From positions 8,121,001 through 8,185,000 of the forward strand of contig OZ004584.1 in the NCBI GenBank assembly GCA_963924555.1: a stretch of DNA of 64,000 nt. The letters are read 5' to 3'. The first letter of the stretch is position 1, and every line of letters starts with the position of its first letter. The notes under the pieces were generated by a model. It ran no database searches, was not told the origin of the DNA, and saw only the letters and a list, made by a program, of their open reading frames with translations. The position numbers and the translations under genes are program-made. Shown piece by piece: positions 4,820 to 28,948 of the stretch. This DNA is from Crambe crambe (Eukaryota > Porifera > Demospongiae > Poecilosclerida > Crambeidae).

Positions 4820-7591
4820 ATGCAGGCTGCTCATTCTTACATACTGTTGAAAGATAAAGATAATTCTTGTCATCGTGGAAGGCTATTAAAATTGCGAAGC
4901 GATGGTTCCTACAGTCACCATCGACACAGCCGTTTAGCACTTCCTCTTGGCATACGTTGTAGTGCTGATGAGGTGGCTGCACTGAGTGAGGAAGAGTGTG
5001 TGCTTCTGGATGGCATTGACTCTGAAGCTGACCGCTACACAGTCTACAGCACTCCAGGGAAGCTGAAGTGGGGGTGTGGTCTCAAGGTGGGAGACACTGT
5101 TTTGGCTCAATTACCTCGTAGGAGTGGGCGTGGCACCTCTAGTCGACAGTACATAACTTCCATCATTAGGTGGTGCGGCCAGACTCAGTATGGTTGCCAC
5201 ATATATGGAGTGGAGATCACAGTTAGTAGTCGCAATTCTGTGTGTGGAGTACTTGTATTCAAAACTATGACAGTATGAATAGTCTCGCGTAGCCAGACCC
5301 TTTTTATATCAGGAAAGAATTGGTCTGGCTACGCGAGACTAAGTATGAAGGCCTAACTTGAGAAAATATTTCAGCTAACGGGTGACCAGGGCTGTATCCA
5401 AGGCTGCCCCAGACCCCTCCACCCTTTACTAGCTCAGGAGGGGAAAGGGTGTGGTAAACTTTACATAGCAGAGTAGTCAGCTCACAAAGGGCATATACAG
5501 CTATTACAGCTAAAAGTCACCAAAAAAAAATTCTTCATTAACTTTGATAAATTCTTTAGTAATAGAGTTTATATATGTGACAGTCGAGGGTAGAAATCAA
5601 ACTTTATTCACGTTTTAGTCAAACTTTCCTTTTATCATGACTGATGCTTTACAATAGAATTTTCTGCCTTTCGAACTTTTTTTTTCGAAAGTAGAAAGCG
5701 TGAATAAAGTTTGATTTCTACCCTCGACTGTCACATATGTAATGTATAATTGTATAATGCTGACTAGCTGGTTTACCTCACATGGCAGCAAAAAAGTGGG
5801 GGGGGGGGGGGGGGCATTATATATTAGAGTAAAAAAGTGGGGGCCCATGGCCCCCCCGGCCCCCCCTTTTCCTCCGCCTATGCACTATTAGCTGGGTTTA
5901 TAATATGATCCTTGAGTTGGTAAAGGTTTACTATGCTTTCTGACTTTGTCACTACAATATGCATTATCCTTCGGTGGAAACCAATGAACTGAGCACGTCT
6001 AGGGTCTGCCTCAAAACAGAAGAAGAGGTATAGCTAGTTAGTTAGCCACCACTGCACATGCACCATCCATAACTATAATGTCATGCTTCTCATGTCACGT
6101 TGTGAGTAATCATAGTGAGAGATAGATAGCTAGCTAGGAACTCTGTTGAAACTATTAGAAATCCCCACTGATACGGCCCAGCTAGGGAACTGAAGACACA
6201 AATAAATTATTGTATATGTGGCTCTGGATTCATTCTTTTTCATATTATAGGACCAGAAATATCGTGGATATGGGGATAATGATGGCACATATGAATCATG
6301 GAGACTTCAAAAAAAGTACTTCATTTGTGAGGATAAATGTGGTCTTTTTCTGACACTAGATAAGTTGAAGCAACCTCCTGTTAATGTTATGTCAAGTGGT
6401 GAGTTACAAGATCGTATCTCACAACTGGAGAGAGAACTGAAAGTGAAGACACAAGAAAATGACCACCTCCAGCAGCAGCTGAGGCAAGAAAGAGAACAGG
6501 TGAACAAACTGCAAGAACAAGTGAGATGGAAAGTACAAGGAGGAGAGGCATCTGAAGCAGTAGTCAGGCTGCAGGAGGAGATAAGAATGAAGGATGAAGA
6601 ACTGCGACAAACTGTGACTAGATTTGAAGATCAGCTGAGAGGACAGAGAGAGCGTCATGTGGTCGAGTTGCAGTGTGCGAGAAATGAGTCGGAACAGTAC
6701 CAACGTCAGTTCAGAGAAGAGCAGGTCCAACGACAGAAACTTGCAGATCGTATTGAAGGAGTAATTGCCCAACTGAAGGGGGAGACAGTGATCCCTCAAC
6801 CACTGGATCTGTGGGAGCTCCCTCGTGAGGATGTCCACATCTCACAAACCATATTAGGAACTGGTGGGTGGGGCTATGTGGCTCGAGGCACATTCCGAGG
6901 TGAGGAAGTGGCAGTGAAGTGTCTCCATCGAGAAATCCTCTCCCCACAGAACGAGGGGAGGGTGAGACGTGAGATCAGCATCATGGCTCAGGTCCGCCAT
7001 CCCAACCTCCTCCTCCTGATTGGAGCTGTCTTAACCACAGAAGGGGAGGGGCCTTTGATCATCACTGAGCTACTGGACAGGTCCTTACGTTCTGCCTACC
7101 AAGATGGTGTGTTGGAGGAGAGAAGTAAAGTGCCCATCTTAAGGAACGTGGCATCAGCCCTCACCTACCTCCACTCCCACCGCACCCCCATCATCCACAG
7201 AGATGTCAGCAGTACCAATGTCCTTTTGGAGCATACAAGACCAGAAATTCAGTGGAAGGCCAAGCTTTCTGACTTTGGATCGGCCAACCTGAGTCACCTT
7301 GCCACCACTCCAGCTGAGGGAGCAGCTATGTACTCTGCCCCTGAGGTGAGTAAGGAAGACCGAAGCCAACAGACAGCCAAGATAGACGTGTACAGCTTTG
7401 GTGTGCTGGTGTGTGAGATGGCTCTGTGTCGCTTCCCTCCTGACAGACTCCAGTTCCCCTCCATGCTGAGAGACGTGCACCATGCTACTCCAGACATGTT
7501 CCCACTGGCACGAGACTGCACCAGTCATGCCCACCAAGACAGACCTGCAATGAGGCAAGTCCTGGAGAGAATCGACCAACTCGGAAACTGA
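4820..7591 (+). CDS. CYLD-like CAP-Gly-coiled coil-TKL-like kinase, copy A (2 exons)
   Basis: Exons 4820-5221 and 6251-7591, joined in phase 0 (donor GTTAGT, acceptor ATTATAG), giving about 580 residues. Exon 1 holds an N-terminal region resembling the N terminus of CYLD (HSYILLKDKD, then DEVAALSEEEC) and the first half of a CAP-Gly domain (KVGDTVLAQL, then SIIRWCG and YGVEIT). Exon 2 completes it (GDNDGTYE, KYFICEDKCGLFLTL), then a coiled coil with one degenerate 21-residue repeat and an intact kinase (loop near residue 337, VAVK Lys near 357, HRD near 449, DFG near 475). The intron is about 1 kb against about 270-310 in the sisters because of palindromic insertions. The start ATG at 4820 aligns close to the start of the other copies, but the usual 5' flank is replaced by a MITE. 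Confidence 0.82.
5280..5342. mobile_element. Short hAT-like foldback MITE
   Basis: A 63-base hairpin: AGTCTCGCGTAGCCAGACC on the left and its reverse complement on the right, with a short spacer. Both flanks carry the eight bases AGTATGAA, the duplication length typical of hAT transposons. It sits in the first intron of kinase copy A, just after the donor. A partial relative (TAGTCTCGCGAGCCAGAC) lies at about 54702-54720 in SF3B1 intron 1. Confidence 0.7.
5573..5738. mobile_element. Foldback MITE-like element with about 40-base inverted termini
   Basis: Left arm 5573-5612 and right arm about 5699-5738 are near-perfect reverse complements (core GACAGTCGAGGGTAGAAATC). A second nested stem (CTTTCGAA/TTCGAAAG) lies in the centre. 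No ORF. It lies in the first intron of kinase copy A and helps explain its length. A G-run of about 17 bases at 5799-5815 lies just beyond. Confidence 0.7.
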
Positions 7592-8582
7592 GATAAGAAG
7601 CAATTGTACTGACTATTCGAATTTAGTAGTTAGTGCTTGTGTGCGTGTGTTGTGATGTACATGCTTGATGACCCTACCCATTCCTGTATTCAGTCATGAA
7701 TGAATATTTCTGCAGTCAGAACCAAATTTAATGGCTAATTGATTACGAGTTTCATGTTCACGTAACATCATGTGTGGAGATGTCTCACTGGATATTTTCT
7801 GTGGGTAGTTTCCATGGTGACCACTTTGATCCAGACATCAACTTCAGAGAAAGGGGGCATACTCAAAGAGACAGGTATAGACAGTCCCAGTCTAGATCCA
7901 GGAATAATTGCCATTCATAGATCTCTGTCTGGTTCAATAACTAGCTACCTCAAGGCAGTTCTCAAAGGTGACAAGGAAACCCCTTAAACCCCTCCCGCAG
8001 AACATGCCTCATGGCACCCAGCCATCAATGCAAGTATCAAGCCCCTTCGAGGTTGTGGAGATTAATGTATGGCTGAAGGTATTGCTACCTTCTCCCTCAT
8101 CAAGCCTGGACGAATAATCCTTGCTGGCACCTCAGGTGTGCACTAATAAACTCCTCCCCATCTCTTCCTGGGTGTACTGGAATATGTCTCTTCATGATCG
8201 GGCTTTGTGATTGGTGCAGTTGGGAAGGTAGTGGAGGACGTGGAGGGGATTCCCAGAGAGGAGGACATTACTCAATCGTTTGTACTCTGCCCTCACTCGA
8301 CTGCCACACCCCATCCCACATTGGGTGTTCTTCAAGGCCCTCTCCTGTTTCAGAATAGCCTCAGGTCTGGCAAAGGCCTCCGAATAATCAATGGGGACCT
8401 AGCCTTTCTTTTGGAGGTATACTTTGTTGCTCTTTCGGAGTACTACATGTTATGGTAATATGTACCTATTGGATGTATAAACATCAGGTTAACTTTCACT
8501 AATACCATAGATTATGTTATTGTTATGGTCTAGTGCATGACTGAGCATGGTCATGATTGTTGTGGGAGTGGCATGTGAACTA
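7592..8582. other. Intergenic segment of the duplicated unit
   Basis: About 7760-8060 resembles 1790-2090 behind copy 1. A short open stretch at about 8195-8320 reads like possible coding sequence, but I recognise no family and no splice frame. It may be a remnant of another duplicated gene. No confident gene is called. Confidence 0.4.
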
Positions 8583-9005
8583 ATGGCTGAAAAGAATAGT
8601 AGACCTCATTCTTATATATTATTGAGAGAGAAAGATCGCTGTTCTCGTGGATGTCTATTAGAATTGCAAAGTGATGGTTCCTACTTCCGCCATTCCCATG
8701 TATACGTCTTTCCTCATGGTCCTCCTCTTCGTTGTACTATTGATGAGGTGGCTGCACTGAGTGAGGAAGAGTGTGTGGTTCTGGATGGCATTGACTATGC
8801 TGCTCACCGCTACACAGTCTACAGCACTCCAGGGAAGCTGAAGTGGGGGTGTGGTCTCAAGGTAGGGGACACTATTTTGGCACGACTACCTGGTAGGAAT
8901 GGGCATGGCTCCTCTGGTGGTGGACAGCAGCACCACACAACTGCCATCATTAGGTGGTATGGGGAGACTGAAGGTGATGATCACAGATTTGGAGTGGAGA
9001 TCACA
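8583..9005 (+). pseudogene. Orphan CAP-Gly first exon, copy B
   Basis: An intact 141-codon first exon of the array family: HSYILLREKD, DEVAALSEEEC, KLKWGCGLKVGDTILARL, then AIIRWYG and FGVEIT, ending at a good donor (gtatgt at 9006). No kinase exon follows. Within about 75 bases the sequence changes to acyl-CoA dehydrogenase remnants, and the next kinase exon belongs to copy C, which has its own first exon. It could be spliced past copy C's first exon into copy C's second exon (phases match), but a half-gene left by unequal exchange is simpler. An in-frame upstream ATG exists here and not in most copies, so the start could be a few codons earlier. Confidence 0.65.
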
Positions 9006-9078
9006 GTATGTATGACTGTTAGCTATAGTTGTCTGTCCTGTCCTGATATTGTAGCAAACAGTGAGGATGGATGTGTCG

Positions 9079-9740
9079 GAGTCCAGGATGGAGATTGACC
9101 GATGTCGTCTTCTCGACCTCAAGGCCGCCCACACCATTGATTGCAATGGAACCAAAGTCGGTGTGTCATTTGTATGCTCATGGGGGTGTGGTCAGCTGCT
9201 CTTTATTGATTGCTGTATTTGGTTTGTTTTTTCAGATTGCCGCTATCAAAGTTTGTCACTGGAATGGCCTGCAAAGTCATTGACGGAGCTATTCAGGTAA
9301 GTCATGTACCCTCCAAATAATGCACACCTTGGAATCATGTGAACACTTAGCTAATTACTACTGTGAAACTGATAAAGAATATCCTCTCAATCTAAAATAC
9401 TTTTTGAGTCCTTCTTTGAGTACTTTTGCCCGGATGTTCCTTCTTCAAATTCTTTTCACATTTCTTACAAAATAACCTCCAAAAGAGGACAACCTCTCCG
9501 AAGGGTCCCAAGTGTGTCCATTCTTTGGAGGACAGGTGACATTATAATGTTGCATTCTTAACTGCCACTCCTCTAAAGCACAATCAAATGACTCATGACT
9601 CATTATTGCAGGTGTTTGTGTCAGGACACGCCCCTGGCCCACATGTATGCAGGGGCATGTAGCCTGCGAATCGCTGACGGTCCAGATGTGGTCCACATGC
9701 TAAGATGGAGCTAAAAGAACAGCTCCAGTCCAAACTGTAG
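9079..9740 (+). pseudogene. Acyl-CoA dehydrogenase (ACAD10/11-type) 3' remnant, copy i
   Basis: Three exon-like blocks. 9079-9160 reads MEIDRCRLLDLKAAHTIDC, the helix region near the ACAD C terminus. 9236-9296 follows a TTCAG acceptor and reads IAAIKV, then MACKVIDGAIQ after an extra base shifts the frame. 9612-9740 follows GCAG and in one frame reads AHMYAGACSLRIADGPDVVH and ends QLQSKL-stop, the family's last exon. The catalytic core is absent, so this is a broken fragment carried by the duplicated unit. Its stop lies about 110 bases before the start of kinase copy C. Confidence 0.75.
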
Positions 9741-9850
9741 AAGGATCTTCTTCTCATGCAAAATTGTTGTTTGTTATTGATGTTGTGCATATTGTTGTCT
9801 ATTGCTGAGTGGGTGTGGTCATCATTGTTGTGGGAGTGGCTTGTGGACTA

Positions 9851-11989
9851 ATGGCTGGTGGACCTCATTCTTACATATTGTTGAGAAATAAACGTCACTA
9901 TTCTCGTGGATGTCTATTAGAATTGCGAAGTGATGGTTCCTACTATCATTGCCACGGCCTCGCGAGACTAACTGCTCCTCCTCTACTTTGTAGTGCTGAT
10001 AAGGTGGCTGCACTGAGTGAGGAAGAGTATGTGGTTCTGGATGGCATTGACTCTGATGCTGACCGCTACGCAGTCTACGGCACTCCAGGGATGCTGAAGT
10101 GGGGGTGTGGTCTCAAGGTGGGGGATACTGTTTTGGCACCACTACTACCTGATGGGAGTGGGCGTGGCTCCTCTGGTGGTGGACAGTACACAACTGCCAT
10201 CATTAGGTGGTGTGGGAAGGCTGATTATGCTGGTCATAAATTTGGAGTGGAGATCACAGTATGTTAGTACCAAGCATCCCTCCCTTCTCCCTAGGCCTAC
10301 CTACTAGCTTAACTTGTGCACACATAGTGACAAAATGGATATGGGCTGTAGATATCTCACCACTCTATTAAACTGCTTGAATGGTGTTGATAGAACAGGA
10401 CTCTGCATGAGTAGAGCATGTGCATGTGTCACATTGTGGAGTAGAGCACATGAGGTGCAAGTCTTTAACTTAGTGATTTCAAGAAACTATTTCTACAGTC
10501 ATGTTAGTTTCCCTAACAATATTTCTCTTGATTGCTCTGATATTAACAACATTAGGACCAGCGGTACCGTGGACGTGGGGACAATGATGGAACTTATATT
10601 ACTGTGCTAAATACTACTAATAAATACTTTACTTGTGATAAAGGATGTGGTCTTTTTCTGTCTTTGGATAAGATTAAGCAACCACCTCCTATCAGTCCAA
10701 CGTCAAGTGGTGAGTCACAAGATTGTGTGTCACAACTGGAGAGAGAACTGAGAGAGAAGACACAAGAAACTCACCACCTCCAGCAGCAGCTGAGGCAAGA
10801 AAGAGAACAGGTGAACAGACTGCAGGGGGAGGTGAGGAGGAAGGACCAGGAGGTGAGGGAGGAGAGGGAGACAGTGGTCAGACTGCAGGAAGAGGTGAGG
10901 AGGAAGGACCAGGAGGTGAGGGAGGAGAGGGAGACAGTGGTCAGACTGCAGGGGGAGGTGAGGAGGAAGGACCAGGAGGTGAGGAGGAAGGATGAAGAGC
11001 TGCAACAAACTGTGACTAGATTTGAAGATCAGCTGAGAGGACAGAGAGAGCGTCTTGTGATTGAGTTGCAGCATATGAAGAATGAGTCAGAACAGTACCA
11101 ACGTCAGTTCAGAGAGGAGCAGGTCCAACGACAGGAACTTGCAGGTCGTATTGAAGGAGTAATGGCCTTATGTAGGGGGGAGACAGTGACCCCTCAATTG
11201 CTGGATCTGTGGGAACTCCCTCGTGAAGATGTCTATATCTCACAGACCCTATTGGGGACTGGTGGGTGGGGCTACGTGGCCCAAGGCACATTTCGAGGTG
11301 AAGAAGTGGCAGTGAAGTGTCTCCATAGAGAAATCCTCTCCCCACAGAACGAGGGGAGGGTGAGACGTGAGATCAGCATCATGGCTCAGGTCCGCCATCC
11401 CAACCTCCTCCTCCTGATTGGAGCCGTCTTAACCACAGAAGGGGCGGGGCCTTTGATCATCACTGAACTATTGGACAGGTCCTTACGTTCTGCCTACCAA
11501 GATGGTGTGTTGGAGGAGAGAAGTAAAGTACCCATCTTAAGGAATGTGGCATCAGCCCTCACTTACCTACACTCCCACCACACCCCCATCATCCACAGGG
11601 ATGTCAGCAGTGCCAATGTCCTCTTGGAGCATACAAGACCTGAAATTCAGTGGAAGGCCAAGCTTTCTGACTTTGGATCGGCCAACCTGAGTCACCTTGC
11701 CACCACCCCCTTCGAGGGAGCAGCTGTGTACTCTGCTCCTGAGGTGAGCATGGAAGACCGGAGCCGACAGACAGCCAAGATAGACGTGTACAGCTTTGGT
11801 GTGCTGGTGTGTGAGGTGGCTCTGTGTCGCTTCCCTCCTGACAGACTCCAGTTCCCCTCCATGCTGAGAGATGTGCACCATGCTACCCCAGACATGTTCC
11901 CACTGGCACGAGACTGTACCAGTCACGTCCACCAAGACAGACCTGCAATGAGGCAAGTCCTGGAGAGAATCGACCAACTCGGAAACTGA
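9851..11989 (+). CDS. CYLD-like CAP-Gly-coiled coil-TKL-like kinase, copy C (2 exons)
   Basis: Exons 9851-10258 and 10556-11989, phase 0, about 613 residues. Start ATG lies in CTAATGGCTGG; the frame upstream is closed by TGA with no earlier ATG. Exon 1: HSYILLRNKRHYSRG, DKVAALSEEEY, KWGCGLKVGDTVLA, AIIRWCG, FGVEIT. Exon 2: DQRYRGRGDNDGT and KYFTCDKGCGLFLSL finish the CAP-Gly fold (residues about 100-175). Coiled coil spans about 185-345 with two full 21-residue repeats plus a partial one. Kinase covers about 362-610: GTGGWG, VAVK Lys near 389, HRDVSSAN near 483, DFG near 508, APE near 531. No signal peptide or membrane segment, so cytosolic. By CYLD analogy the N-terminal part may bind microtubules or ubiquitin-pathway partners; this is inference. 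Confidence 0.87.
10820..10990 (+). repeat. 63-base coding minisatellite in the coiled coil of copy C
   Basis: Units start at 10820, 10883 and 10946, exactly 63 bases apart, and encode the 21-residue module LQGEVRRKDQEVREERETVV plus R. Twenty-one residues is three heptads, so each added unit lengthens the coiled coil without breaking its register. The third unit is cut short and runs into the conserved RKDEELQQ segment. Confidence 0.85.
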
Positions 11990-13236: not shown

Positions 13237-14447
13237 TTAACGACACTGTTGAAGACAGTCATTTTTGGTTTTGAAATTGTTGGCATTTCCTCTGCATCCA
13301 CCATAGATGAACCTGCGACAGGAGCGAGACCTACTGTGGTAGTAGTAACGCACGAAGCGGGCAAGACATGGACCAGCCTTCGGAGGGAGGGAGCAGGTAT
13401 TACTGGGACTACATGCTCTCCTAGTGCAGGCTACACGACCATTAGCCAAACATCGACTATATAAATAATTATTTAATGGATAGCTAATAAGGTGACCTTC
13501 CATTATGATGCTCTATTCATCTTGGCCTTACCACTTATTGCAGCCATCAGAGGATGGAAAAGATTCTCCCACATTATATGTCCTGCCATTGTACCTGCAA
13601 GCTGTAAGTAGCTAGCTCTGATGCTATTAACTAGCACTTCAATATGTGTATTCATCGTGCACTTACTTTTTTTACTGCTACACTTTTGAAGACAAGCTTT
13701 CACTGTTTTGAAATTGTTGGCATTTCCTCTGCATCCTCCATAGGTGAACCTACGACAGGAGCGAGACCTACTGTGGTAGTAGTAACGTGTGAAGTGGGCA
13801 CGACATGGACCAGTCTTCGGAGGGAGGGAGCAGGTATTACTGGGACTACATGCTCTCCTAGTACAGGCTACACGACCATTAGCCAAACATCGACTGTATA
13901 AATAATATATGACAGAAATGCAATCATATAGTAGCTAATAGTTTAGAAAAGCAAAAGGGACCCCAGCCAGTGTTGGGTTCTTAGGGTGCACCTCCATTAT
14001 CTATTCTCTTACCACTTATTGCAGCCATCAGACGATGGAAAAGAGTCCCCCACATCATATGTCTGGCCATTGTATCTGCAAGCTTCAAGGAATTATTATC
14101 ATTTATGCTACCACTTCTTTTGTTATAAACTGCTTACTTTTTGCACTACACCTTTGAAGACAGGCTTTTTCAGTTTTGAAATTGTTGGCATTTCCTGCAC
14201 ATCCACCATAGATGAACCTACGACAGGAACGTGACCTACTATCATAGTGGTAACGCACAAAGCGAGCACGACATGGGCCAGTCTCCGGAGGGAGGGTGCA
14301 AGGATTATCACCTGTTTCATAGAAGTTAATTTCTAGCCCATGGTTACATTAAGTATTTGGCTACAGTGTAGACCCACCTGCAGCTGTTATGACAAGTAGA
14401 AGACTGCTGAGAACACACAGGACAACAAAACCTGCAGTGGGTGACAT
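13237..14447 (-). CDS. Secreted triple-Kunitz serine protease inhibitor with VWC-like linkers, gene A
   Basis: Six exons read on the minus strand: 14378-14447, 14138-14311, 14013-14082, 13667-13893, 13532-13601, 13237-13456; all junctions are GT-AG and the total of 831 bases gives 276 residues. Exon 1 is a signal peptide (MSPTAGFVVLCVLSSLLLVI). Three Kunitz domains follow, each with six cysteines and the Y-GGC-GNANNF signature. Domains two and three are each preceded by a small cysteine module, CRYNGQTYDVGDSFPSSDGC followed by [18 protein letters not shown], which looks like a von Willebrand C-type half. The residue after the second Cys (P1, sets specificity) is Arg, Arg and Leu, suggesting trypsin-like targets for two domains and an elastase/chymotrypsin-like target for the third. 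It acts outside the cell. Confidence 0.85.
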
Positions 14448-14584
14448 CTTCAGAAAAGTAGTAGTAGTACTAATAGTAGCAAAGCAGCAATAGTAATAGT
14501 TTTAATAGCAGAAGTGAGAGGAAATAGTCAACCCATCCTACGCGCATGCGCATCAGAGGGGGAGGGATCCGCTGGGCATATTTA

Positions 14585-15229
14585 CCTTTGAGTGAGAAAG
14601 TACTAACGATAATTCGTCCCCTCAATGTGTACGTCAACGCCCCCCATGGCCACATGGAAATAGAATTCAACAATGTCAGAGTCCCTGCTTCTAATCTAAT
14701 ACTAGGTGAGTACTGTGACTCTTATTAAGAAGACTCTAATTAGAGAACTGTCTTAATAAGAGGTGGCCATTATTTGCTAGGAGTAATGAGATTCCAGCTA
14801 GTGGCAGGGGTCAGCATATTTATTTATTGCCCAGGGGAGGGGCATGGCTTTGAGATGGCCCAGGGGTGTCTTGGTCCAGGGAGGATCTTTGAGTACTTTT
14901 GCCCTATCTTCCATGGATCAAATTCTTTTTACATTTCTTACAAAATAACTCCAAAGAGGACAACCTCTCCACTAAGGAGAGAACACTGGGTCCCATAGTG
15001 TGTCCATAATTTTGGAGGACAGGTGTCACTGTTAGTGTAATGTTGCATTCTTAACTGCCACTCCTTTAAGGCACAATCAGAAACTCAAATGACTCATGAC
15101 TCATTATTGCAGGTGCCCCACATGTATGCAGGGGCACGTAGCCTGCGAATTGCCGACGGTCCAGATGTGGTCCACATGGAAACTGTTGCTAAGATGGAGC
15201 TAAAAGAACAGCTCCAGTCCAAACTGTAG
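14585..15229 (+). pseudogene. Acyl-CoA dehydrogenase 3' remnant, copy ii
   Basis: Blocks read TIIRPLNVY then [20 protein letters not shown] and ILG up to a donor at 14706; GEGHGFEMAQGCLGPGRI after an AG near 14831; and HMYAGARSLRIADGPDVVHM to QLQSKL-stop in the last exon. These match successive parts of ACAD10/11-type enzymes, but intervening exons (including that seen at 9079-9160) are missing, so no enzyme can be made from here. It separates Kunitz gene A from kinase copy D. Confidence 0.8.
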
Positions 15230-15326
15230 AAGAATCTTCTCACACAAAATAGCAACTTGTGTGTTTGTTGTTTGTTATTGTTTATATGCATGAGTGGGTG
15301 TGGTCATCATTGTTGTGGGAGTGGTA

Positions 15327-15713
15327 ATGGCTGCAAGGAATAGTGGACCTCATTCTTACATATTGTTGAGAGAGAAAGATTACTTTTCTCGTGGATGTCT
15401 ATTAAAATTGCAAAGTGATGGTTCCTACCATTACCATATTCATGCTGATCGCTACATTAAGTAGACTGATTCTGGTTCTCTACGTTGTCGTGCTGATGAG
15501 GTGGCTGCATTGAGTGAGGAAGAGTGTGTAGTTCTGGATGGCATTGGCTCTTATGCTGACTGCTACACAGTCTACAGCACTCCAGGGAAGCTGAAGTGGG
15601 GGTGTGGTCTCAAGGTGGGCGGTGAACAGCAGCACCAGTACACAACTGCCATCATTAGGTGGTGTGGGAAGACTGATCCATTTAATATTTATCAATTTGG
15701 AGTGGAGATCACA
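15327..15713 (+). pseudogene. CAP-Gly first exon of copy D, with in-frame stop
   Basis: Homologous to the other first exons (HSYILLREKDYFSRG, AALSEEECVVLDG, KLKWGCGLKVG, AIIRWCG, FGVEIT) and keeps the donor gtatgt. But codon 46 is TAG (15462-15464), and about 16 codons after GLKVG that hold the TVLARL strand in sister copies are deleted in frame. The CAP-Gly half is therefore unlikely to fold even if read through. Start ATG is at 15327. Confidence 0.75.
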
Positions 15714-16018
15714 GTATGTATATACTACCTATCCCTTCCTATGCTAGTTTAACTTGTGCACACATAGTGACAAAATGGATATGGACCGTAGATATCTCAC
15801 CACTCTATTAAACTGTCAGGTGCTTGAGTGGTATCAATAGAACACGATTCTGCATGAGTAGAGCATGTGCATGTATCACATTGTGGAGTAGAGCACATGT
15901 GGTGCAAGTCTTTGACTTAGTGATTTCAAGAAACTTCATTTCTACAGTCATAACCATGACGTGCTCCTGTTAGTTTCCCTCACAACATTTATCTTGACTG
16001 CTCTGATATTAACATTAG

Positions 16019-17626
16019 GACCAGCAGTACCGTGGATGTGGGGACACTGATGGAACTTACATGTATCATGATGATGATGATCTGTGCACCATGGGTACTA
16101 TGTACTTCACTTGTAATGCTGGATGTGGTCTCTTTCTGTCTTTGGCAGAGATGGAGCAACCATCTCCTGTTAGTGCAACGTCAAGTGGTGACTCTCAAGA
16201 TCGTATTTCACAACTAGAGAGAGAACTGAGAGAGAAGACACAAGAAACTCACCACCTCCAGCAGCAGCTGAGGCAAGAAAGAGAACAGGTGAACAGACTG
16301 CAGGGGGAGGTGAGGAGGAAGGATCAGGAGGCGAGGGAAGAGAGTGAGACAGTGGTCAGACTGCAGGAGGAGGTGAGGAGGAAGGACCAGGAGGCGAGGG
16401 AAGAGAGTGAGACAGTGGTCAGACTGCAGGGGGAGGTGAGGAGGAAGGACCAGGAGGTGAGGGAGGAGAGGGAGACAGTGGTCAGACTGCAGGGGGAGGT
16501 GAGGAGGAAGGACCAGGAGGTGAGGGAGGAGAGGGAGGCAGTGATCAGACTGGAGGGGGAGGTGAGGAGTAAGGACCAGGAGGAGAGGGAGGCAGTGGTC
16601 AGATTGCAGGGGGAGGTGAGGAGGAAGGATGAAGAACTGCGACAAACTGTGACTAGATTTGAAGATCAGCTGAGAGGACAGAGAGAGCATCATGTGGTTG
16701 AGTTTCAGCATGTGAGGAATGAGTCAGAACAGTACCAACGTCAGTTCAGAGAAGAGCAGATCCAACGATGGGAACTTTCAGGTCGTATTGAAGGAGTAAT
16801 TGCCCAACTGAGGGGAGAGACAGTGACCCTTCAACTGCTGGATCTGTGGGAACTCCCTCGTGAAGATGTCCACATCTCACAGACCATATTGGGAACTGGT
16901 GGGTGGGGCTATGTGGCCCGAGGCACATTCCGAGGACAGGTGGTAGCAGTGAAGTGTCTTCATCGAGGAATCCTCTCTCCACAGAACGAGGGGAGGGTGA
17001 GACGTGAGATCAGCATCATGGCTCAGGTCCGCCATCCCAACCTCCTCCTCCTGATTGGAGCCATCTTAACCACAGAAGGGGTGGGGCCTTTGATCGTCAC
17101 TGAGCTACTGGACAGGTCCTTACGTTCTGCCTATGAAGAAGGTATTTTGGAAGAAAGGTGTAAAGTACCCATCTTGAGGGATGTGGCATCAGCCCTCACC
17201 TACCTCCACTCCCACCGCATCCCCATCATCCACAGAGATGTCAGCAGTGCCAATATCCTCTTAGAAGAAACAAAGCCAGCTCTTCAGTGGAAGGCCAAGC
17301 TTTCTGACTTCGGATCTGCCAACCTGAGTCACCTTGCAACCACTCCAGCTGAGGGAGCAGCTGTGTACTCTGCCCCTGAGGTGAGCACGGAAGACCGGAG
17401 CCGACAGACAGCCAAGATAGATGTGTACAGCTTTGGTGTGCTGGTGTGTGAGGTGGCTCTGTGTCGCTTCCCTCCTGACAGACTCCAGTTCCCCTCCATG
17501 CTGAGAGACGTGCACCATGCTACTCCAGACATGTTCCCATTGGCACGAGACTGCACCAGCCACGCCCACCAAGACAGACCTGCAATGAGGCAAGTCCTGG
17601 AGAGAATCGACCAACTCGGAAACTGA
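16019..17626 (+). CDS. CAP-Gly (C-terminal half)-coiled coil-TKL-like kinase, copy D, second exon
   Basis: Open from the acceptor at 16017-16018 to the stop: 535 codons. It reads DQQYRGCGDTDGT, MYFTCNAGCGLFLSL, then the longest coiled coil of the family, with four 21-residue units, one 18-residue unit and the terminal unit, and a complete kinase (GTGGWG, VAVK, HRDVSSAN, DFGSANL, APE). Because the first exon carries a stop, translation may start at an internal ATG such as 16061, giving a 521-residue coiled coil-kinase without a working CAP-Gly domain. From about 17145 to the end it is almost identical to copy E. Confidence 0.8.
   Translation, partial: DQQYRGCGDTDGTYMYHDDDDLCTMGTMYFTCNAGCGLFLSLAEMEQPSPVSATSSGDSQDRISQLERELREKTQETHHLQQQLRQEREQVNRLQGEVRRKDQEAREESETVVRLQEEVRRKDQEAREESETVVRLQGEVRRKDQEVREERETVVRLQGEVRRKDQEVREEREAVIRLEGEVRSKDQEEREAVVRLQGEVRRKDEELRQTVTRFEDQLRGQREHHVVEFQHVRNESEQYQRQFREEQIQRWELSGRIEGVIAQLRGETVTLQLLDLWELPREDVHISQTILGTGGWGYVARGTFRGQVVAVKCLHRGILSPQNEGRVRREISIMAQVRHPNLLLLIGAILTTEGVGPLIVTELLDRSLRSAYEEGILEERCKVPILRDVASALTYLHSHRIPIIHRDVSSANILLEETKPALQWKAKLSDFGSANLSHLATTPAEGAAVYSAPEVSTEDRSRQTAKIDVYSFGVLVCEVALCRFPPDRLQFPSMLRDVHHATPDMFPLARDCTSHAHQDRPAMRQVLERIDQLGN
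16298..16669 (+). repeat. Expanded 63-base coding minisatellite in copy D
   Basis: Units begin at 16298, 16361, 16424, 16487 and 16550 (63-base period), then a 54-base unit leads to the last unit near 16604. Neighbouring units share private variants (AREESE in units one and two, VREERE in three and four), the mark of recent local duplication. It encodes about 120 residues of uninterrupted charged coiled coil. Confidence 0.88.
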
Positions 17627-18136: not shown

Positions 18137-18173
<37 letters not shown>

Positions 18174-20873: not shown

Positions 20874-21013
20874 CTTCAGTAAAGCAGTAGTAGCAGTAGT
20901 AGCAATAGAAGGATCTTCTTACACAAAATTGTTTGTTATTGATGTTGTACTGCATGTTGTTATCTATTGCATGAGTGGGCGTGGTCATCATTGTGGGAGT
21001 GGCTCGTGGACTA

Positions 21014-23056
21014 ATGGCTGGAAAGAATAGTAGACCTCATTCTTACATATTGTTGAGAGAGAAAGATAACTTTTCTCGTGGATATCTATTAGAATTGCGT
21101 AGTGATGGTTCCTACTACCAACATTCCCATAGATACATCCCTTTTATGATTGATCCTCTTCCACGTTGTACTTGTAGTGCTGATGAGGTGGCTGCACTTA
21201 GTAAAGAAGAGTGTGTGGTTCTGGATGGCACTAACTCTGATGCTGACCGCTACACAATCTACAGCACTCCAGGGAAGCTGAAGTGGGGGTGTGGTCTCAA
21301 GGTGGGGGACACTGTTTTGGCACGACTACCTGATGGGAGTGGGCGTGGTTCCTCTGGTGGTGGACAGCAGCACCAGTACACAACTGCCATCATTAGGTGG
21401 TGTGGGGAGACTGATTATGTTGGTCATAAATTTGGAGTGGAGATCACAGTATGTATGAACTAGCTAGTACCAAGCTAATCTGGCAGCCCCGAGCGCTGGC
21501 TACGCCAGATCAGTACCAAGCATCCCTCCCTTCTCCCTGAGTGGTGTCAACTCTGCATGAGTAGAGCATGTGCATGTGTCACATTGTGGAGTAGAGCACA
21601 TGTGGTGCAAGTCTTTAACTTAGTGATTTCAAGAAACTCCATTTCTACAGTCATAATTATGATGTGCTCCTGTTAGTTTCCCTCACAACATTTGTCTTGA
21701 TTGCTCTGATATTAACTTTAGGACCAGCAGTACCGTGGACATGGGGACACTAGTGGAACTTGTGGTCCTACTAGGTACTTCACTTGTGAAAAAAGATGTG
21801 GTCTCTTTCTGTCTTTGGCTGAGCTGGAGCAACCACCTCCTATTAATGCAATGTCAAGTGGTGAGTCGCAAGATCGTATCTTACAACTGGAGAAAAAATT
21901 GAGAAAGAAAATACAAAAAACTCACCACCTCCAGCAGCAGCTGAGGCAAGAAAGAGAACAGGTGAACAGACTGCAGGGGGAGGTGAGGATGAAGGACCAG
22001 GAGGTGAGGGAGGAGAGGGAGACAGTGGTCAGACTGCAGGAGGAGGTGAGGAGGAAAGACGAAGAGCTGCAGCAAACTGCAATTAGATTTGAAGATCAGC
22101 TGAGAGGACAGAGAGAGCGTCACATGGTTGAATTGCAGCGTGTGAGGAGCGAGTCAGAACAGTACCAACATCAGTTCAGAGAGGAGCAGGTCCAACGACA
22201 GGAACTTGCAGGTCGTATTGAAGGAGTAATGGCCTTATGTAGGGGAGAGACAGTGCCCCCTCAATTGTTGGATCTGTGGGAACTTCCTCATGAAGATGTT
22301 CACATCTCACAGACCATATTGGGAACTGGTGGGTGGGGCTACGTGGCCCAAGGCACATTCCGAGGACAGGTGGTAGCAGTGAAGTGTCTCCATCGAGGAA
22401 TCCTCTCTCCACAGAACGAGGGGAGGGTGAGACGTGAGATCAGCATCATGGCTCAGGTCCGCCATCCCAACCTCCTCCTCCTGATTGGAGCCGTCTTAAC
22501 CACAGAAGGGGTGGGGCCTTTGATTGTCACTGAGCTACTGGACAGGTCCTTACGTTCTGCCTATGAAGAAGGTATTTTGGAAGAAAGGTGTAAAGTACCC
22601 ATCTTGAGGGATGTGGCATCAGCCCTCACCTACCTCCACTCCCACCGCACCCCCATCATCCACAGAGATGTCAGCAGTGCCAATGTCCTCTTAGAAGAAA
22701 CAAAGCCAGCTCTTCAGTGGAAGGCCAAGCTTTCTGACTTCGGATCTGCCAACCTGAGTCACCTTGCAACCACTCCAGCTGAGGGAGCAGCTGTGTACTC
22801 TGCCCCTGAGGTGAGCACGGAAGACCGGAGCCGACAGACAGCCAAGATAGATGTGTACAGCTTTGGTGTGCTGGTGTGTGAGGTGGCTCTGTGTCGCTTC
22901 CCTCCTGACAGACTCCAGTTCCCCTCCATGCTGAGAGACGTGCACCATGCTACTCCAGACATGTTCCCATTGGCACGAGACTGCACCAGCCACGCCCACC
23001 AAGACAGACCTGCAATGAGGCAAGTCCTGGAGAGAATCGACCAACTCGGAAACTGA
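21014..23056 (+). CDS. CYLD-like CAP-Gly-coiled coil-TKL-like kinase, copy E (2 exons)
   Basis: Exons 21014-21448 and 21722-23056, phase 0, about 589 residues. Exon 1: HSYILLREKDNFSRG, DEVAALSKEEC, KLKWGCGLKVGDTVLARL, AIIRWCG, FGVEIT. Exon 2 starts DQQYRGHGDTSGT, so the usual (N/T)DG of the CAP-Gly signature is TSG here; a change at the groove could weaken binding. RYFTCEKRCGLFLSL follows. The coiled coil has one full 21-residue unit plus the terminal unit. The kinase is intact (GTGGWG, VAVK, HRDVSSAN, DFG, APE) and nearly identical to copy D over its last 450 bases. Confidence 0.86.
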
Positions 23057-24540
23057 ATGCCAACATATGTCACAGTGGCCTCTTATATATCCACTCAAAA
23101 CTATTAGGAACTGAGTGGATGTAACTAGAGTTCATTTTTATTGCATGTAGCTATTGGCCTTTTCTAAAGAGGGTATTTAATATCAATTATTATATCTGAA
23201 GAGCATGACTATATACTTTGTGTGTGTAAGAACTTAGAAGTCTCATCATGCATTTGGCTAATATTGTCCTATACAGCTACTGATGCCAGTTCATTGAATC
23301 ACCAAGTCTCCAAGAGCTGTAATAAAGTATGAAGTGACATGATATTAATATGCCTGCCTGCCTGTGTAGAGCTAGTCAGAGTTTATCAGTGAGCAGGAAC
23401 CCAATCACGTTCTACTAGCTAACTACAGTGAACCTACAACCCAGCATTTTATCCTTTGTGCAGAGGTTGTCCTCTTTATGGAGGTTATTTTGCATGATTG
23501 TATTTCAGTTAGATCTTTCTTAGTTGAGAGTTTTCAGAGTGTCCTTTATCAGAAGTTTCATTGACTAAATACAAATAATTTACCCCCCCCCCCCCCCAAA
23601 AAATAATTACATACCAAGTAGAAAGAAAAAGAAATACGTAATAAATGTAATGTAAATAATCCAAGCATGTTTGAAAAACAAAAAACAAAAATAAAACAAA
23701 AACATAACAACAACAACAACTTTCCCACAAAGGTTTAGTCTGAGCAGTCACATCATGCAAGCATGAATAGTTAGTTTATATGAAGTATGAACTAATTATA
23801 AGTTATGTGGCAATATAGTCTTAATAAGTTAGAGCAATGAAGTGTATAATAGCAGAGAAAAAATGACTATAAGTTATGCAGAATGCATGCAGGTGAGCAG
23901 TGAGCTGCTATGTTTATTCAGGAATAAAAGGGAGTGAAATGTAGTATATAGATCATCATTAGCTACTTGAGAAAAGGGAAAGGCATGCATGCATGCAAAG
24001 TTTACAAGCTACATATGAAAATGTACATGAGATGTAAATTCAAGAACAAATGGTCAGATAGCTAAGACCTCTTTTTTCTCAAGTACGATATCTTTATATA
24101 ATCACACTTGCTAGCATGCACCTTTAAAAGCAGTCGAAGGGAGAATTAAGAGTAGAACAGTGATAATTATGATGTGTCCAAATAGCTGTGTTTATTCCAT
24201 GGAGTGGGAAATGGGTATGCCGTTGCTGAAATCAGTGTTCATTGCTGCATGCATGCAGTTAAAGATGACCACCCATAGCTATATCTCATTTGAAAGCAGC
24301 TATATAAAACTAGCTCTTTCATTACAAGAGGCTGCAGACAACTGCAGTTCCAAACTAATACACACAGCAGCTAATTTTCACTAGGTATTCAAAGTTGTGT
24401 CATCATGATAGCTGCTTAGCTAATAAGGTAGCTAATTAATTATAATCCATGCGGACACTTGATGAAAAGGACTTTGCTATTTAGGTGGTCATATGGTGTG
24501 TATATCAGTCTGCTTTTAGCTATAACTATCTACTCTGTTC
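23057..24540. other. Intergenic between copy E and Kunitz C
   Basis: The start (about 23140-23290) matches the 3' flanks of copies D and F. A C-run (about 23583-23597), A-rich runs and a partial copy of the dispersed AACCTCC/GGACAC repeat (about 23430-23545) are present. No gene is seen. Confidence 0.5.
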
Positions 24541-25790
24541 ACCATTTTTAATGACACTGTCGAAGACAGTCACTTTTGGTTTCAAAATTGTTGGCATTTC
24601 CTCTCTGCATCCTCCATAGATGAACCTGCGACAGGAGCGAGACCTACTGTGGTAGTAGTAACGCACGAAGTGGGCATGACATGGACCAGTCTCCAGAGGG
24701 AGGGAGCAGGTATTACTGAGACTACATGCTCTCCTAGTGCAGGCTACACCACCATTAGCCAAACATCGACTGTATAAATAATTATTTAATGGATAATAAG
24801 GTGTCCTTCCATTATGATGCTCTATTCATCTTGGCCTTACCACTTATTGCAGCCATCAGAGGATGGAAAAGATTCTCCTACATTATATGATATCCTGCCA
24901 TTGTACCTGCAAGCTGTAAGTAGCTCTGATGCATTTTAATGCTATTAACTAGCACTGCAATATGTGTATTCATTATGTGCTTACTTTTTTTACTACTACA
25001 CTTTTGAAAACAAGCTTTCTCTGTTTTGAAATTGTTGGCATTTCCTCCACATCCTCCATAGGTGAAACTATGGCAGTAATGAGACCTACTGCTGTAATAG
25101 TAATGTGTGAAGTGGGCACGACACGGGCCAGTCTCCGGAGGGAGGGTGCAAGGATTACATGCTCTCCTTGTGCAGGCTACACGACCATTAGCCAAACATC
25201 GACTGTATACAATAATATATGACAGAAATGTAACCAATTGTATCATAATATATTAGCTATATATTGTTGTAGAAAAGCAAGGGATCCCAGCCAGTGTTGG
25301 ATACGAGGTTATGTTCTTAGGGTGCACCTCCATTATCTATTCTCTTATCATTTATTGCAGCCATTAGACGATGGAAAAGAGTCCCCCACATCATACTGGC
25401 CATTGTATCTACAAGCTTCAACTTCAAGGAATACACATCATTCATCACTTCTTTCGTTATAAACTGCTTACTTCTTGCACTACACCTTTGAAGACAGGCT
25501 TTTTCAGTTTTGAAATTGTTGGCATTTCCTGCACATCCACCATAGGTGAACCTGCGACAGGAACGCAACCTACTATCATAATGGCAACGCACAAAGCGAG
25601 CACGACATGGGCCAGTCTCTGGAGGGAGGGTGCAAGGATTATCACCTGTTCCATAGAAGTTAATTTCTAGACCATGGTTACGTTAAGTATTTGGCTACAG
25701 TGTAGACCCATATTAAATACCTGCAGCTGTTATGAGGATCAGAAGACTGCTGAGAACACACAGGACAACAAAACCTGCAGTGGGTGAGAT
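24541..25790 (-). pseudogene. Kunitz inhibitor gene C, probably degraded
   Basis: Same exon order as gene A on the minus strand: a signal exon near 25790, first Kunitz domain (about 25480-25660), linker (about 25355-25425), second Kunitz domain (about 25005-25210, six cysteines intact, Arg at P1), second linker (about 24835-24915) and a third Kunitz domain (about 24541-24770). A few disruptions, including in the signal exon and the last domain, argue against a normal product, although the middle domain is perfectly readable. It might still be expressed from another start. Confidence 0.6.
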
Positions 25791-25939
25791 CTTCAGAAAA
25801 GTAGTAGTAGTACTAATAGTAGCAAAGCAGCAATAGTAATAGCAGAAGTGAGATCGAGAGGAAATAAAATTAGTCAACCCATCCTATGCGCATGCGCATC
25901 AGAGGGGGAGGGAGCCGCTGGGCATACGACCCTTACCTG

Positions 25940-26783
25940 ATTTTGAGTGAGAAAGGACATTTTCCATTAGAGTCTACCAGCAAAAGCGGTTTAAGAGATC
26001 TAAGAGATTGGCTTGACCAGTTTCTTCTCAGGTACATGTCCACATACCTAGCTAGTTAATAGCCATTCAGTGCTAACCAGAATCTGAACACATCTGCACC
26101 GCACCAGATACTGGTCCCCCTTGATTCTCCAGGGGTGACGATAATTCGTCCCCTCAATGTTTTCTAGTACGTTGATGTCCCCCATGGCCACATGGAAATA
26201 GAATTCAACCATGTCAGAGTCCCTGCTTCTAATCTAATACTAGGTGAGTACTGTGACTCTTATTAAGAAGACTCTAATTAGAGAACTGTCTTAATAAGAG
26301 GTGGCCATTATTAAGATTCCAGCTAGTGGAGGGGCGTTTCCAGGGGTCACCACTCCACTGCATATTTATTTATTGCCCAGGCCAGGGAGGAGCATGGCTT
26401 TGAGATAGCGTCTTGGTCCAGGGAGGATCTTTGGGTACTTTTGGCCTATCTTACATGGATGTTCCTTAAATTCTTTTTGCATTTCTTATAAAATAACCTC
26501 CAAAAGAGGACAACCTCTCTACAAAGGAGAGAACACTGGGTCCCAAGTGTGTCCATAATTTTGGAGGACAGGTGTCACTGTTAGCGTAATGTTGCATTCT
26601 TAACTGCCACTCCTTTAAGGCACAATCATAACTCATTATTGCAGGTGTTTGGAGGTATGGGGGTGTGTCAGGATACGCCCCTGGCCCACATGTATGCAGG
26701 GGTGCATAGCGAATTGCCAACAGTCCAGATGTGGTCCACATGGAAACTGTTGCTAAGATGAACAGCTCCAGTCCAAACTGTAG
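25940..26783 (+). pseudogene. Acyl-CoA dehydrogenase 3' remnant, copy iii
   Basis: The longest remnant. It reads HQILVPLDSPGVTIIRPLN (about 26100-26160), then after a frame break [18 protein letters not shown] up to a donor at 26244; a decayed block near 26376-26420 (GFEIA, LGPG); and a last exon from 26646 reading VFGGMGVCQDTPLAHMY and ending QSKL-stop at 26783. An open stretch before it (about 25957-26031, ending in a donor) may be an upstream exon that I cannot name. Middle exons are absent, so no enzyme is expected. Confidence 0.75.
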
Positions 26784-26914
26784 AAGGATCTTCTCGCACA
26801 AAATAGCAAACTATTAATTTGTGTGTTTGTTCTTTGTTATTGATGTTGTACTGCATGTTGTCTATTGCATGAGTGGGCGTGGTCATCATTGTTGTGGGAG
26901 TGGCTTGTGGACTA

Positions 26915-28948
26915 ATGGCTGGAAGGAATAGTGGATCCCATTATTACATATTGTTGAGAAGTACAGTTCTTTATGCTCGTGGATCTCTATTAAAATTGCT
27001 GAGTGATGGTTCCTACCGACACCATACTACTAGGCATACATCATCTTGGTTTTTAAACATTTTTTCGGTACGTTTTAGTGCTGATGAGGTGGCTGCACTG
27101 AGTAAGGAAGAGTGTATGGTTCTGGATGGTATTGACTCTGATGCTGACCGCTACACAGTCTACAGCACTCCAGGGAAGCTGAAGTGGGGGTGTGGTCTCA
27201 AGGTAGGGGACACTGTTTTGGCACGACTACCTGGTTTGAGTGGGCGTGGCTCCTCTGGTGATGGACAGCAGCACCAGTACACAACTGCCATCATTAGGTG
27301 GTGTGGGAAGACTGAATATAATGGTCATAAATTTGGAGTGGAGATCACAGTATGTATGTACTAGCTAGTACTAAGCATCCCTCCCTTCTCCCTAGGTCTA
27401 CCTCCTATGCATGCTAGTTTAACTTGTGCACGCATAGTGACAAAATGGATATGGGCTGTAACTGTCAGGAGAACACGACTCTGCATGAGTAGAGCATGTG
27501 CATGTGTCACATTGTGGAGTAGAGCACATGTGATGCAAGTCTTTAACTTAGTGATTTCAAGAAACTCCATTTCTACAGTCATAATTATGATGTACTCCTG
27601 TTAGTTTCCCTCACAACATTTGTCTTGACTGCTCTGATATTAACATTAGGACCAGCAGTACCGTGGATGTGGGGACACTGATGGAACTTATACTGAAGAT
27701 GGTGATGTTTCAAGGTATTTCACTTGTGATGATGGATGTGGTCTCTTTTTGTCTTTGGATGAGATGGAGCAACAACCTCCTGTTAGTGCAATGTCGAGTG
27801 GTGAGTCGCAAGATCGTGTGTCACAAGATCGTGTGTCACAACTGGAGAGAGAACTGAGAGAAAAGACACAAGAAACTCACCACCTCCAGCAGCAGCTGAG
27901 GCAAGAAAGAGAACAGGTGAACAGATTGCAGGAGGAGGTGAGGAGGAAGGATGAAGAACTGCGACAAACTGTGACTAGATTTGAAGATCAGCTGAGAGGA
28001 CAGAGAGAGCGTCATGTGGTTGAGTTGCAGCGTGTGAGGAATGAGTCAGAACAGTACCAACGTCAGTTCAGAGAGGAGCAGGTCCAACGACAGGAACTTT
28101 CAGGTCGTATTGAAGGAGTAATTGCCCAACTGAGGGGGGAGACAGTGACCCCTCAACTGCTGGATCTGTGGGAACTCCCTCGTGAAGATGTCCACATCTC
28201 ACAGACCATATTGGGAACTGGTGGGTGGGGCTATGTGGCCCGAGGCACATTCCAAGGACAGGTGGTAGCAGTGAAGTGTCTCCATCGAGGAATCTTCTCC
28301 CCACAGAACGAGGGGAGGGTGAGACGTGAGATCAGCATCATGGCTCAGGTCCGCCATCCCAACCTCCTCCTCCTGATTGGAGCCGTCTTAACCACAGAAG
28401 GGGTGGGGCCTCTGATCGTCACTGAGCTACTGGATAGGTCCTTACGTTCTGCCTATGAAGAAGGTATTTTGGATGAAAGGTGTAAAATATTTATCTTGAG
28501 GGATGTGGCATCAGCCCTCACCTACCTCCACTCCCACCGCACCCCCATCATCCACAGAGATGTCAGCAGTGCCAACGTCCTCTTGGAGCGTACAAGACCA
28601 GAAATTCAGTGGAAGGCCAAGCTTTCTGACTTTGGATCGGCCAATCTGAGTCACCTTGCCACCACTCCAGCTGAGGGAGCAGCTGTGTACTCTGCCCCTG
28701 AGGTGAGCACGGAAGACCGGAGCCGACAGACAGCCAAGATAGACGTGTACAGCTTTGGTGTGCTGGTGTGTGAGGTGGCTCTGTGTCGCTTCCCTCCTGA
28801 CAGACTCCAGTTCCCCTCCATGCTGAGAGACGTGCACCATGCTACTCCAGACATGTTCCCACTGGCAAGAGACTGTACCAGTCACGCCCACCAAGACAGA
28901 CCTGCAATGAGGCAAGTCCTGGAGAGAATCGACCAACTCGGAAACTGA
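26915..28948 (+). CDS. CYLD-like CAP-Gly-coiled coil-TKL-like kinase, copy F (2 exons)
   Basis: Exons 26915-27349 and 27650-28948, phase 0, about 577 residues. Exon 1: HYYILLRSTVLYARG, DEVAALSKEEC, KLKWGCGLKVGDTVLARL, AIIRWCG, FGVEIT. Exon 2: DQQYRGCGDTDGT, RYFTCDDGCGLFLSL. This copy has no full 21-residue unit; the coiled coil goes straight to LQEEVRRKDEELRQ, so it is the shortest. A short duplication DRVSQDRVSQ precedes it. The kinase has GTGGWG, VAVK, HRDVSSAN, DFG and APE; the usual KVPILRDV is KIFILRDV. Nearest neighbour downstream is intact Kunitz gene D on the other strand. Confidence 0.86.

Follow-up and report, generated by a model that had tools for sequence, protein, structure and literature searches.

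The first 29 kb of the window, a 64,000-nucleotide stretch of the sponge Crambe crambe genome (contig OZ004584.1, here C6; C6:8121001-8185000), hold a tandem array of + strand genes with a common two-exon layout. Our analysis indicates that these genes almost certainly encode proteins made of a CYLD-type N terminus, a CAP-Gly domain, a coiled coil and a kinase. The reading that we favor, and hold to be probable, is that of a CYLD-derived fusion with a variable sensor and a constant kinase, that is, of recognition kinases; for recognition itself as the function, the case is about evenly balanced.

Gene copies and a CAP-Gly domain across the intron

The genome searched was an assembly of 143.1 Mb in 119 contigs. 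The first-pass annotation had proposed a multi-copy family, and this was borne out by at least eight intact two-exon copies: g1, g2, g3, g5, g6, g7, g8 and one on C13, with g7 and g8 on the - strand about 72-80 kb past the array. The copies listed in that annotation are real, but the list was incomplete, as it missed g1 exon 2, a truncated copy at ~2400-3614, a lone exon 1 at 8583-9005 and g4 at 15327-17626. Other copies are not intact: gT is truncated, g4 has a TAG in its exon 1, g2b consists of an exon 1 alone, and C6:6474543 gives split matches. The exons in and next to the array are as follows.

C6:8120574-8120945, just left of the window start: g1 exon 1
347..1645, + strand: g1 exon 2 (CAP-Gly second half, coiled coil, kinase); joined CAP_GLY 39.3 bits
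2400..3614, + strand: gT, truncated exon 2 copy in two frames with an in-frame TGA, start approximate; an exon 1 was looked for and not found
4820..5221, + strand: g2 exon 1 (CYLD-type N terminus, CAP-Gly first half)
6251..7591, + strand: g2 exon 2; spliced product 580 amino acids
8583..9005, + strand: g2b, exon 1 copy with a donor and without its own exon 2
9851..10258, + strand: g3 exon 1
10556..11989, + strand: g3 exon 2; spliced product 613 amino acids
15327..15713, + strand: g4 exon 1, with one in-frame TAG
16019..17626, + strand: g4 exon 2, open, 535 amino acids, with the longest coiled-coil repeat
21014..21448, + strand: g5 exon 1
21722..23056, + strand: g5 exon 2; spliced product 589 amino acids
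26915..27349, + strand: g6 exon 1
27650..28948, + strand: g6 exon 2; spliced product 577 amino acids

Exon 1 encodes 124-146 amino acids and ends in ...GVEIT at a GT donor; exon 2 (430-477 amino acids in intact copies) starts with D/E-Q/K-x-Y/F-R-G directly after the AG. The introns of g2-g6 are 273-1029 bases long and in phase 0, and the four junctions predicted earlier (5221/6251, 10258/10556, 21448/21722 and 27349/27650) all proved right, with GT/AG ends, phase 0 and joined frames free of stops. The prediction that a CAP-Gly domain spans the intron also held: when the joined proteins were compared with Pfam, CAP_GLY scored above its cut-off of 26.5 bits in seven of the eight copies (g1 39.3, g2 33.9, g3 33.2, g5 38.2, g6 34.5, g8 45.0 and C13 44.2). 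In the Pfam controls, exon 1 alone gave no CAP_GLY match in either of the two copies tried, and for g2 and g5 the head of exon 2 by itself stayed under the cut-off at 22.3 and 24.5 bits. For g8 and C13, the exon 2 half narrowly passed it unjoined in the genome search (28.8 and 29 bits), so half a domain is recognizable by itself; joining the exons added ~15 bits to these two scores. Each of the eight joined proteins has one CAP-Gly stretch in Pfam. The groove motif GKNDG, whose lysine is important for tubulin binding, is exact in g8 only, the others reading GDNDG, GDTDG, GDTSG, GNNDG, GDSDG or GNSDG.

The donor is kept beyond the window. Among the 120 best exon 1 matches listed from other assemblies, all 118 open reading frames (ORFs) with a GVEIx-type motif continue into a GTN codon (V), which is followed by S (GTN-AGT or alike) in 95 of them. 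In P0026, P0032, P0035, P0052 and P0078, a Q precedes the exon 2 start, as a CAG acceptor would give.

Coiled coil and kinase

The coiled coil proposed for exon 2 is upheld by a predicted model in which residues 46-173 form one 128-residue helix, with block means of the predicted local distance difference test (pLDDT) of 77-92 over residues 51-150. The stretch from CAP-Gly to kinase measures 137-181 amino acids across the eight copies, a length that partly follows the number of 63-bp coding repeats (units of 21 amino acids), of which g3 has 2.8 and g4 has 5.5.

10816-10988: 63-bp coding tandem repeat in g3
16294..16629, + strand: 63-bp coding tandem repeat that lengthens the g4 coiled coil

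All eight intact copies match the kinase family PF00069, at 112.9-122.2 bits, as well as PF07714, and all have the glycine loop, VAVK, the alpha-C Glu, HRD..N, DFG and APE. Assignment to the TKL type agreed with the PDB comparison, where the best matches were CTR1 and TNNI3K (best E 2.6e-27), followed by CSK, which is a tyrosine kinase, and then IRAK4, RAF and others. The family thus resembles TKL kinases such as CTR1, TNNI3K, IRAK4 and RAF in the sequence of its kinase domain. The best near-full-length kinase outside the family in the same genome was 46% identical (147 of 397 candidates scored). Elsewhere, TKL-like kinase matches at C13:2745195 and C13:2833704 lie inside very long open frames of 8104 and 3566 amino acids, and large groups of further TKL-like kinases are found at C14:4.1-6.4 Mb and C3:5.3-8.6 Mb.

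CYLD ancestry of the N terminus

CYLD genes are present on C21 of the same genome, and a CYLD with CAP-Gly and deubiquitinase domains has been published for another sponge, Amphimedon (PMC5796713). The likeness of exon 1 to the CYLD N terminus, noted in the first reading, was confirmed by a single profile-profile comparison with the genome's own CYLD exon 1 (probability 99.2%, E 2.9e-19, 123 columns), the two aligning from near the first Met through GVE. When all query rows were cut to the part before the CAP-Gly, two of the five template rows being left uncut, the match had a probability of 97.4% with E 1.4e-11 over 84 columns. Moreover, the phase-0 intron inside the CAP-Gly has the identical place and phase in both C21 genes that were modelled, CYLD_A (through its first USP exon) and CYLD_K3; these models were scored by splice consensus only, and intron 5 of CYLD_K3 is uncertain.

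The C21 genes were themselves recognized as CYLD by PDB matches. CAP-Gly1 of CYLD_A hit CYLD 1whl first (E 6.4e-9, the next at 4.6e-3), and CYLD 2vhf was matched both by the CYLD_K3 USP with its B-box (E 7.9e-32) and by the first USP exon of CYLD_A (E 1.5e-7). Pfam UCH listed none of the C21 CYLD USP exons, either in the genome search or in the gene models, so the identity of the USP rests on 2vhf. In a CAP-Gly tree of 22 rows, the window copies group with CYLD CAP-Gly1 (90/78), apart from the CLIP-type domains (93/86). The earlier statement that CYLD is the best match of the CAP-Gly domain itself did not survive, as the best PDB match of g5 was CLIPR-59, followed by CLIP-115 and Restin. The proposed link to CYLD is carried by the region before the CAP-Gly, the intron and the tree.

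The window family is derived from CYLD and yet is not a CYLD, because two CAP-Gly domains and the USP are missing. It has the N-terminal region, CAP-Gly1 and the phase-0 intron in common with CYLD, whereas CAP-Gly2, CAP-Gly3, the USP and the B-box of CYLD are absent and a coiled coil, a TKL kinase and hypervariable loops are present instead. A stop codon follows directly after the kinase, and Pfam listed no UCH in any of the eight copies; since UCH was also silent on the C21 CYLD models, the stop is the stronger evidence for the absence of a USP.

Variable loops and a constant kinase

The hypervariable loops, which the first-pass annotation did not note, are in our reading the most informative property of the family. 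The ratio of nonsynonymous to synonymous substitution rates (dN/dS), estimated by a counting method only, had medians of 0.20 for the kinase, 0.42 for the coil, 0.66 and 0.67 for the CAP-Gly halves and 0.91 for the region before the CAP-Gly, over 28 pairs of the eight copies (27 usable for the exon 2 CAP-Gly half). Variable columns (33 of 139) were picked from arrays in other assemblies (8, 8, 8 and 4 copies, with P0158 left out) and then measured in eight exon 1 copies from the window region. The picked columns gave a dN/dS of 1.40 (bootstrap 1.00-2.06) and the other 106 columns 0.73 (0.48-1.17). Variability profiles of the window and the other arrays were correlated over the 139 columns (rho 0.71), some of the contigs perhaps belonging to one species. 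Variable columns fell more often in coil (23/33 vs 53/112, p 0.03) and lay mainly in residues 16-24, in residues 35-52 and in the hairpin 132-139. In exon 2, the loop from the groove motif to YFTC varies in sequence and length, in window and database copies alike. On g5, these stretches are placed as follows.

21059..21085, + strand: hypervariable stretch 1 (HV1), residues 16-24
21116..21169, + strand: HV2, residues 35-52
21407..21430, + strand: HV3, residues 132-139, the CAP-Gly hairpin before GVEIT
21758..21775, + strand: length-variable exon 2 CAP-Gly loop, from SG of the groove motif to YFTC

By the canonical layout of the domain, the CAP-Gly groove would have a variable loop on either side, two in all, and the choice of ligand may therefore differ among copies.

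Part of this pattern would also be expected of ordinary microtubule-associated kinases, in which the CAP-Gly would tether the kinase to microtubules in the manner of CYLD CAP-Gly1 and the loops would reflect relaxed constraint in young duplicates. CYLD CAP-Gly1 and CAP-Gly2 bind microtubules by the account in PMC8511506, g8 keeps GKNDG, the dN/dS before the CAP-Gly is near 1 and the interval at the variable columns touches 1. We consider this explanation rather unlikely, since the same positions vary in the other-assembly arrays and not in the CYLD paralogues, one CAP-Gly loop changes length, the kinase and much of the domain are kept, and the Lys of GKNDG is absent in seven of the eight copies.

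The control with four CYLD paralogues, in which the most diverged copy B3717 was not counted, showed the picked columns to be ordinary there (0.222 vs 0.224 differing), against 0.736 vs 0.158 in the window copies. This also bears on a decoy or guard role, where a CYLD-like end would mimic CYLD and catch a pathogen factor or regulator aimed at it, upon which the kinase fires. Such a role would suit the part of CYLD in innate immune receptor signalling, as described in PMC8511506, and the two ways in which CYLD parts are joined to kinases in this genome. We regard it as quite improbable, as a decoy should keep the CYLD surface and the columns variable in the family are the ordinary ones in CYLD paralogues.

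Returning to the variable sensor, similarity between copies was uncorrelated among HV1, HV2 and HV3 (rho -0.10, -0.01 and 0.02; 27 copies, 351 pairs); one HV stretch was common to 15 of the 351 pairs and all three to none. This is suggestive of stretches that are not inherited together. We take a contig of 143,462 bases to stem from a second haplotype or individual of this species. One of its exon 1 copies is 98.5% identical to that of g3, at least five more among the matches listed are at 76-83% to any copy in the window, and the exon 2 ORFs listed for it stand at 90-96%.

Related genes in other assemblies

The exon 1 profile search gave 198 matches at E <= 0.01, and the exon 2 search 2678 proteins at E <= 1e-10 among 7995 candidates scored; the best 120 of each were listed. 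A strict CAP-Gly pattern was found in none of the 120 listed exon 2 matches, and a shorter pattern found the second-half motif in frame in 26 of them. The listed exon 1 and exon 2 matches, with 79 and 73 distinct contig sizes, have 16 sizes in common, all above 2000 bases, which take in 52 exon 2 and 54 exon 1 entries among the matches listed. After an offset of the sizes by 1 to 10, no coincidence was left in that size range, which points to more pairing of the two exons in other assemblies than chance would give.

Two of the common sizes (143462 and 2013234) belong to the same species as the window, judged by near-identity. Identity to relatives was 46-64% for exon 1 rows from P0136 onward and 37-73% for the A1 exon 2 rows outside this species, a spread that suggests that the relatives span several species. 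Arrays occur elsewhere too: at least nine listed exon 1 copies are on a contig of 73,887 bases and at least eight on one of 78,063 bases, and the two contigs share an exon 2 loop (P0010, P0081).

These matches bear on whether the family could be an artefact, with neighbouring exons of unrelated genes joined or the copies being mostly pseudogenes. The broken copies gT, g4, g2b and C6:6474543 would fit such a view. Against it stand eight intact copies, the donor in 118 of 118 motif-bearing exon 1 ORFs, the 16 contig sizes common to both exons and the kinase dN/dS of 0.20, and we hold it to be highly improbable.

A protein search with the N-terminal 190 residues of full-length g5 gave nothing at E <= 0.1 among 774 candidates. 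The likely cause is that the database stores each exon as an ORF of its own; queries made exon by exon did give matches. Among prokaryote genome contigs there was one locus, a kinase at 34% in a Bacteroidetes metagenome-assembled genome. The viral contigs searched gave no match, and phages gave eight records, the five listed being at 28.8-31.8%.

A second combination of CYLD and kinase

The first-pass annotation stated that CYLD has no kinase. This genome has exceptions, as its C21 carries CYLD genes with a TKL-like kinase different from that of the window family:

C21:5014443-5053505: kinase-bearing CYLD genes K5014, K5031 and K5048 (L019-L023)
C21:3737.5 kb: L028, a kinase exon followed by a CYLD USP, with no N terminus seen within the stretch read

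CAP-Gly and USP exons are retained in the kinase-bearing genes, and the gene at 5014 kb has a CAP-Gly3-type exon both before and after the kinase. A GTGAGT donor follows the kinase in each of K5014, K5031 and K5048, succeeded by an in-phase CAP-Gly3 exon (one was fitted in a model). The canonical catalytic Cys is replaced in all four kinase-bearing genes (NSSCLD in three, NSGYLD in L028), and both kinase-free genes read NSCYLD. In the three NSSCLD copies a Cys is located one residue further on; loss of deubiquitinase activity is likely in these copies, and the kinase-bearing genes are candidates for encoding kinase-pseudo-deubiquitinase proteins.

The closest relative of the C21 CYLD kinase outside these genes is 73% identical and lies on C3. 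A kinase tree parts the C21 CYLD kinases from the window kinases (100/98); it was built without g3 and four of the ten chosen P rows and carries a long-branch warning. We considered an origin of the window kinases from the CYLD-internal kinase and rejected it, as no window-family place was found among 134 rows scored (511 candidates) and the tree separates the two. The C21 genes likewise combine CYLD parts with a TKL-like kinase and differ from the window family in kinase subfamily and in the CAP-Gly and USP exons retained. CYLD parts thus appear to have been joined with kinases at least twice in this genome.

Proposed mode of action and known systems

In the mechanism that we propose, the CYLD 5' end (first exon and second half of CAP-Gly1) would have gained a coiled coil and a TKL-type kinase, with the join at the phase-0 intron of CYLD itself. 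The variable N-terminal/CAP-Gly surface would bind copy-specific ligands, the long coiled coil would gather chains, and the constant kinase, activated by proximity, would signal through one shared pathway, with phosphorylation replacing the deubiquitinase output of CYLD. The role would most likely be in defence, symbiont or self/non-self recognition. As described in PMC8511506, CAP-Gly1 and CAP-Gly2 of human CYLD help bind microtubules, CAP-Gly3 binds NEMO, and CAP-Gly2 and CAP-Gly3 bind ubiquitin while CAP-Gly1 does not. Tubulin-like tails or signalling adaptors are therefore natural ligand candidates, microbial or self proteins being bolder ones.

Several observations weigh against this reading. 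The joined CAP_GLY score of g7 is 25.3 bits, under the cut-off; the supports for grouping with CYLD CAP-Gly1 lie under the tree tool's star mark (95/80); the predicted exon 1 structure gave no PDB fold match at E <= 0.001 in Foldseek; and the kinase part of the exon 2 model is poor (mean pLDDT 55.8). The dN/dS at the variable columns is just above 1 and threshold-dependent (1.17-1.44), and beyond the loops exon 1 shows no clear constraint among these copies, at 0.73 (0.48-1.17). Synonymous divergence at the variable columns is also high (0.52 vs 0.11), so that old cassettes or gene conversion explain part of the pattern; this suggests that old cassettes stayed distinct as the remainder of the gene was homogenised. 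The reassortment test is weakened by the shortness of the stretches and by conserved flanks included in HV1, linkage in other assemblies was deduced from equally sized contigs without order or strand, and the arrays used for choosing columns may come from only one other species.

The first-pass annotation knew of no described fusion of CAP-Gly, coiled coil and kinase. CAP-Gly together with a kinase is on record: Table 2 of PMC1266030 shows three trypanosomatids, each with a single CAMK-group kinase that bears cap-gly, and VPS15 in other organisms. Only the CYLD-derived TKL form appears undescribed in our searches of the open-licence PMC literature. The trypanosomatid proteins resemble the window family in having CAP-Gly and kinase in one protein; they belong to another kinase group, occur once per genome, and no link to CYLD is stated in the passage concerned (PMC1266030). 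Within the open-licence PMC literature we found neither a TKL kinase with a CYLD-type CAP-Gly nor a CYLD-kinase fusion; as far as our searches of it reached, the CYLD origin, the TKL output, the hypervariability and the parallel kinase-bearing CYLDs are new. Diversified recognition families of invertebrates (NLR, SRCR, FREP) also have multiple copies and a variable recognition part. Here, by comparison, a CAP-Gly joined to a CYLD N terminus would be the variable part, and the kinase output lies in the same chain.

More tentatively, and with the doubts exceeding the support, the family may represent a class of intracellular recognition kinases of animals that has not been described before. Its members would be diversified in the germline through exchange of loop cassettes within tandem arrays; the CYLD-type N terminus and the groove of the CAP-Gly would form the variable binding site, the TKL kinase would give a constant output, the repertoire would be haplotype-specific, and the class would probably occur in several sponges. 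CYLD, a deubiquitinase, would then have given rise to kinase modules on at least two occasions in one genome, on one of them with loss of the catalytic cysteine in situ. If true, this would link CYLD, an immune-signalling regulator, to a kinase repertoire in early animals, and an exon-level fusion would have rewired ubiquitin editing to phosphorylation. Use of the CAP-Gly groove for variable binding would amount to a new recognition scaffold, and the family would be a molecular candidate for partner or tissue discrimination in sponges, which host dense microbial communities.

Other features of the region and genome

Remnants that we take to resemble acyl-CoA dehydrogenase C-terminal exons lie upstream of exon 1 copies at 9063-9712 and 15100-15230, apparently within the duplicated unit; those following g2b exon 1 are likewise presumed to be acyl-CoA-dehydrogenase-like. 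Kunitz/BPTI domain genes (Pfam) at 13503-13934 and 25317-25682 (- strand) are interleaved with the kinase array on the opposite strand, and ORFs at 24878 and 30040 look similar by eye. The g2 intron contains at 5281-5340 an inverted repeat with near-perfect 19-base arms, by appearance a small repeat element. Between g8 and g7, the ORF L002 (C6:8225347-8224967, - strand), which we take to resemble mitochondrial NADH dehydrogenase subunit 4, is a probable nuclear mitochondrial insertion. A long ORF at 49706-52147 of the window has a weak COR-A (Roc/COR) match below cut-off, and a Kelch gene at 48229-49167 adjoins it. Elsewhere in the genome, eight cathepsin-like places have the catalytic Cys changed to Ser (six CGASYAF and one CGSSYAF, all on C15, and one CGCSYAF on C9), presumably the silicatein signature, as would suit a siliceous demosponge. 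They were 8 of 17 matches to the pattern, all eight inside Peptidase_C1 matches, and a reversed control pattern gave 2.

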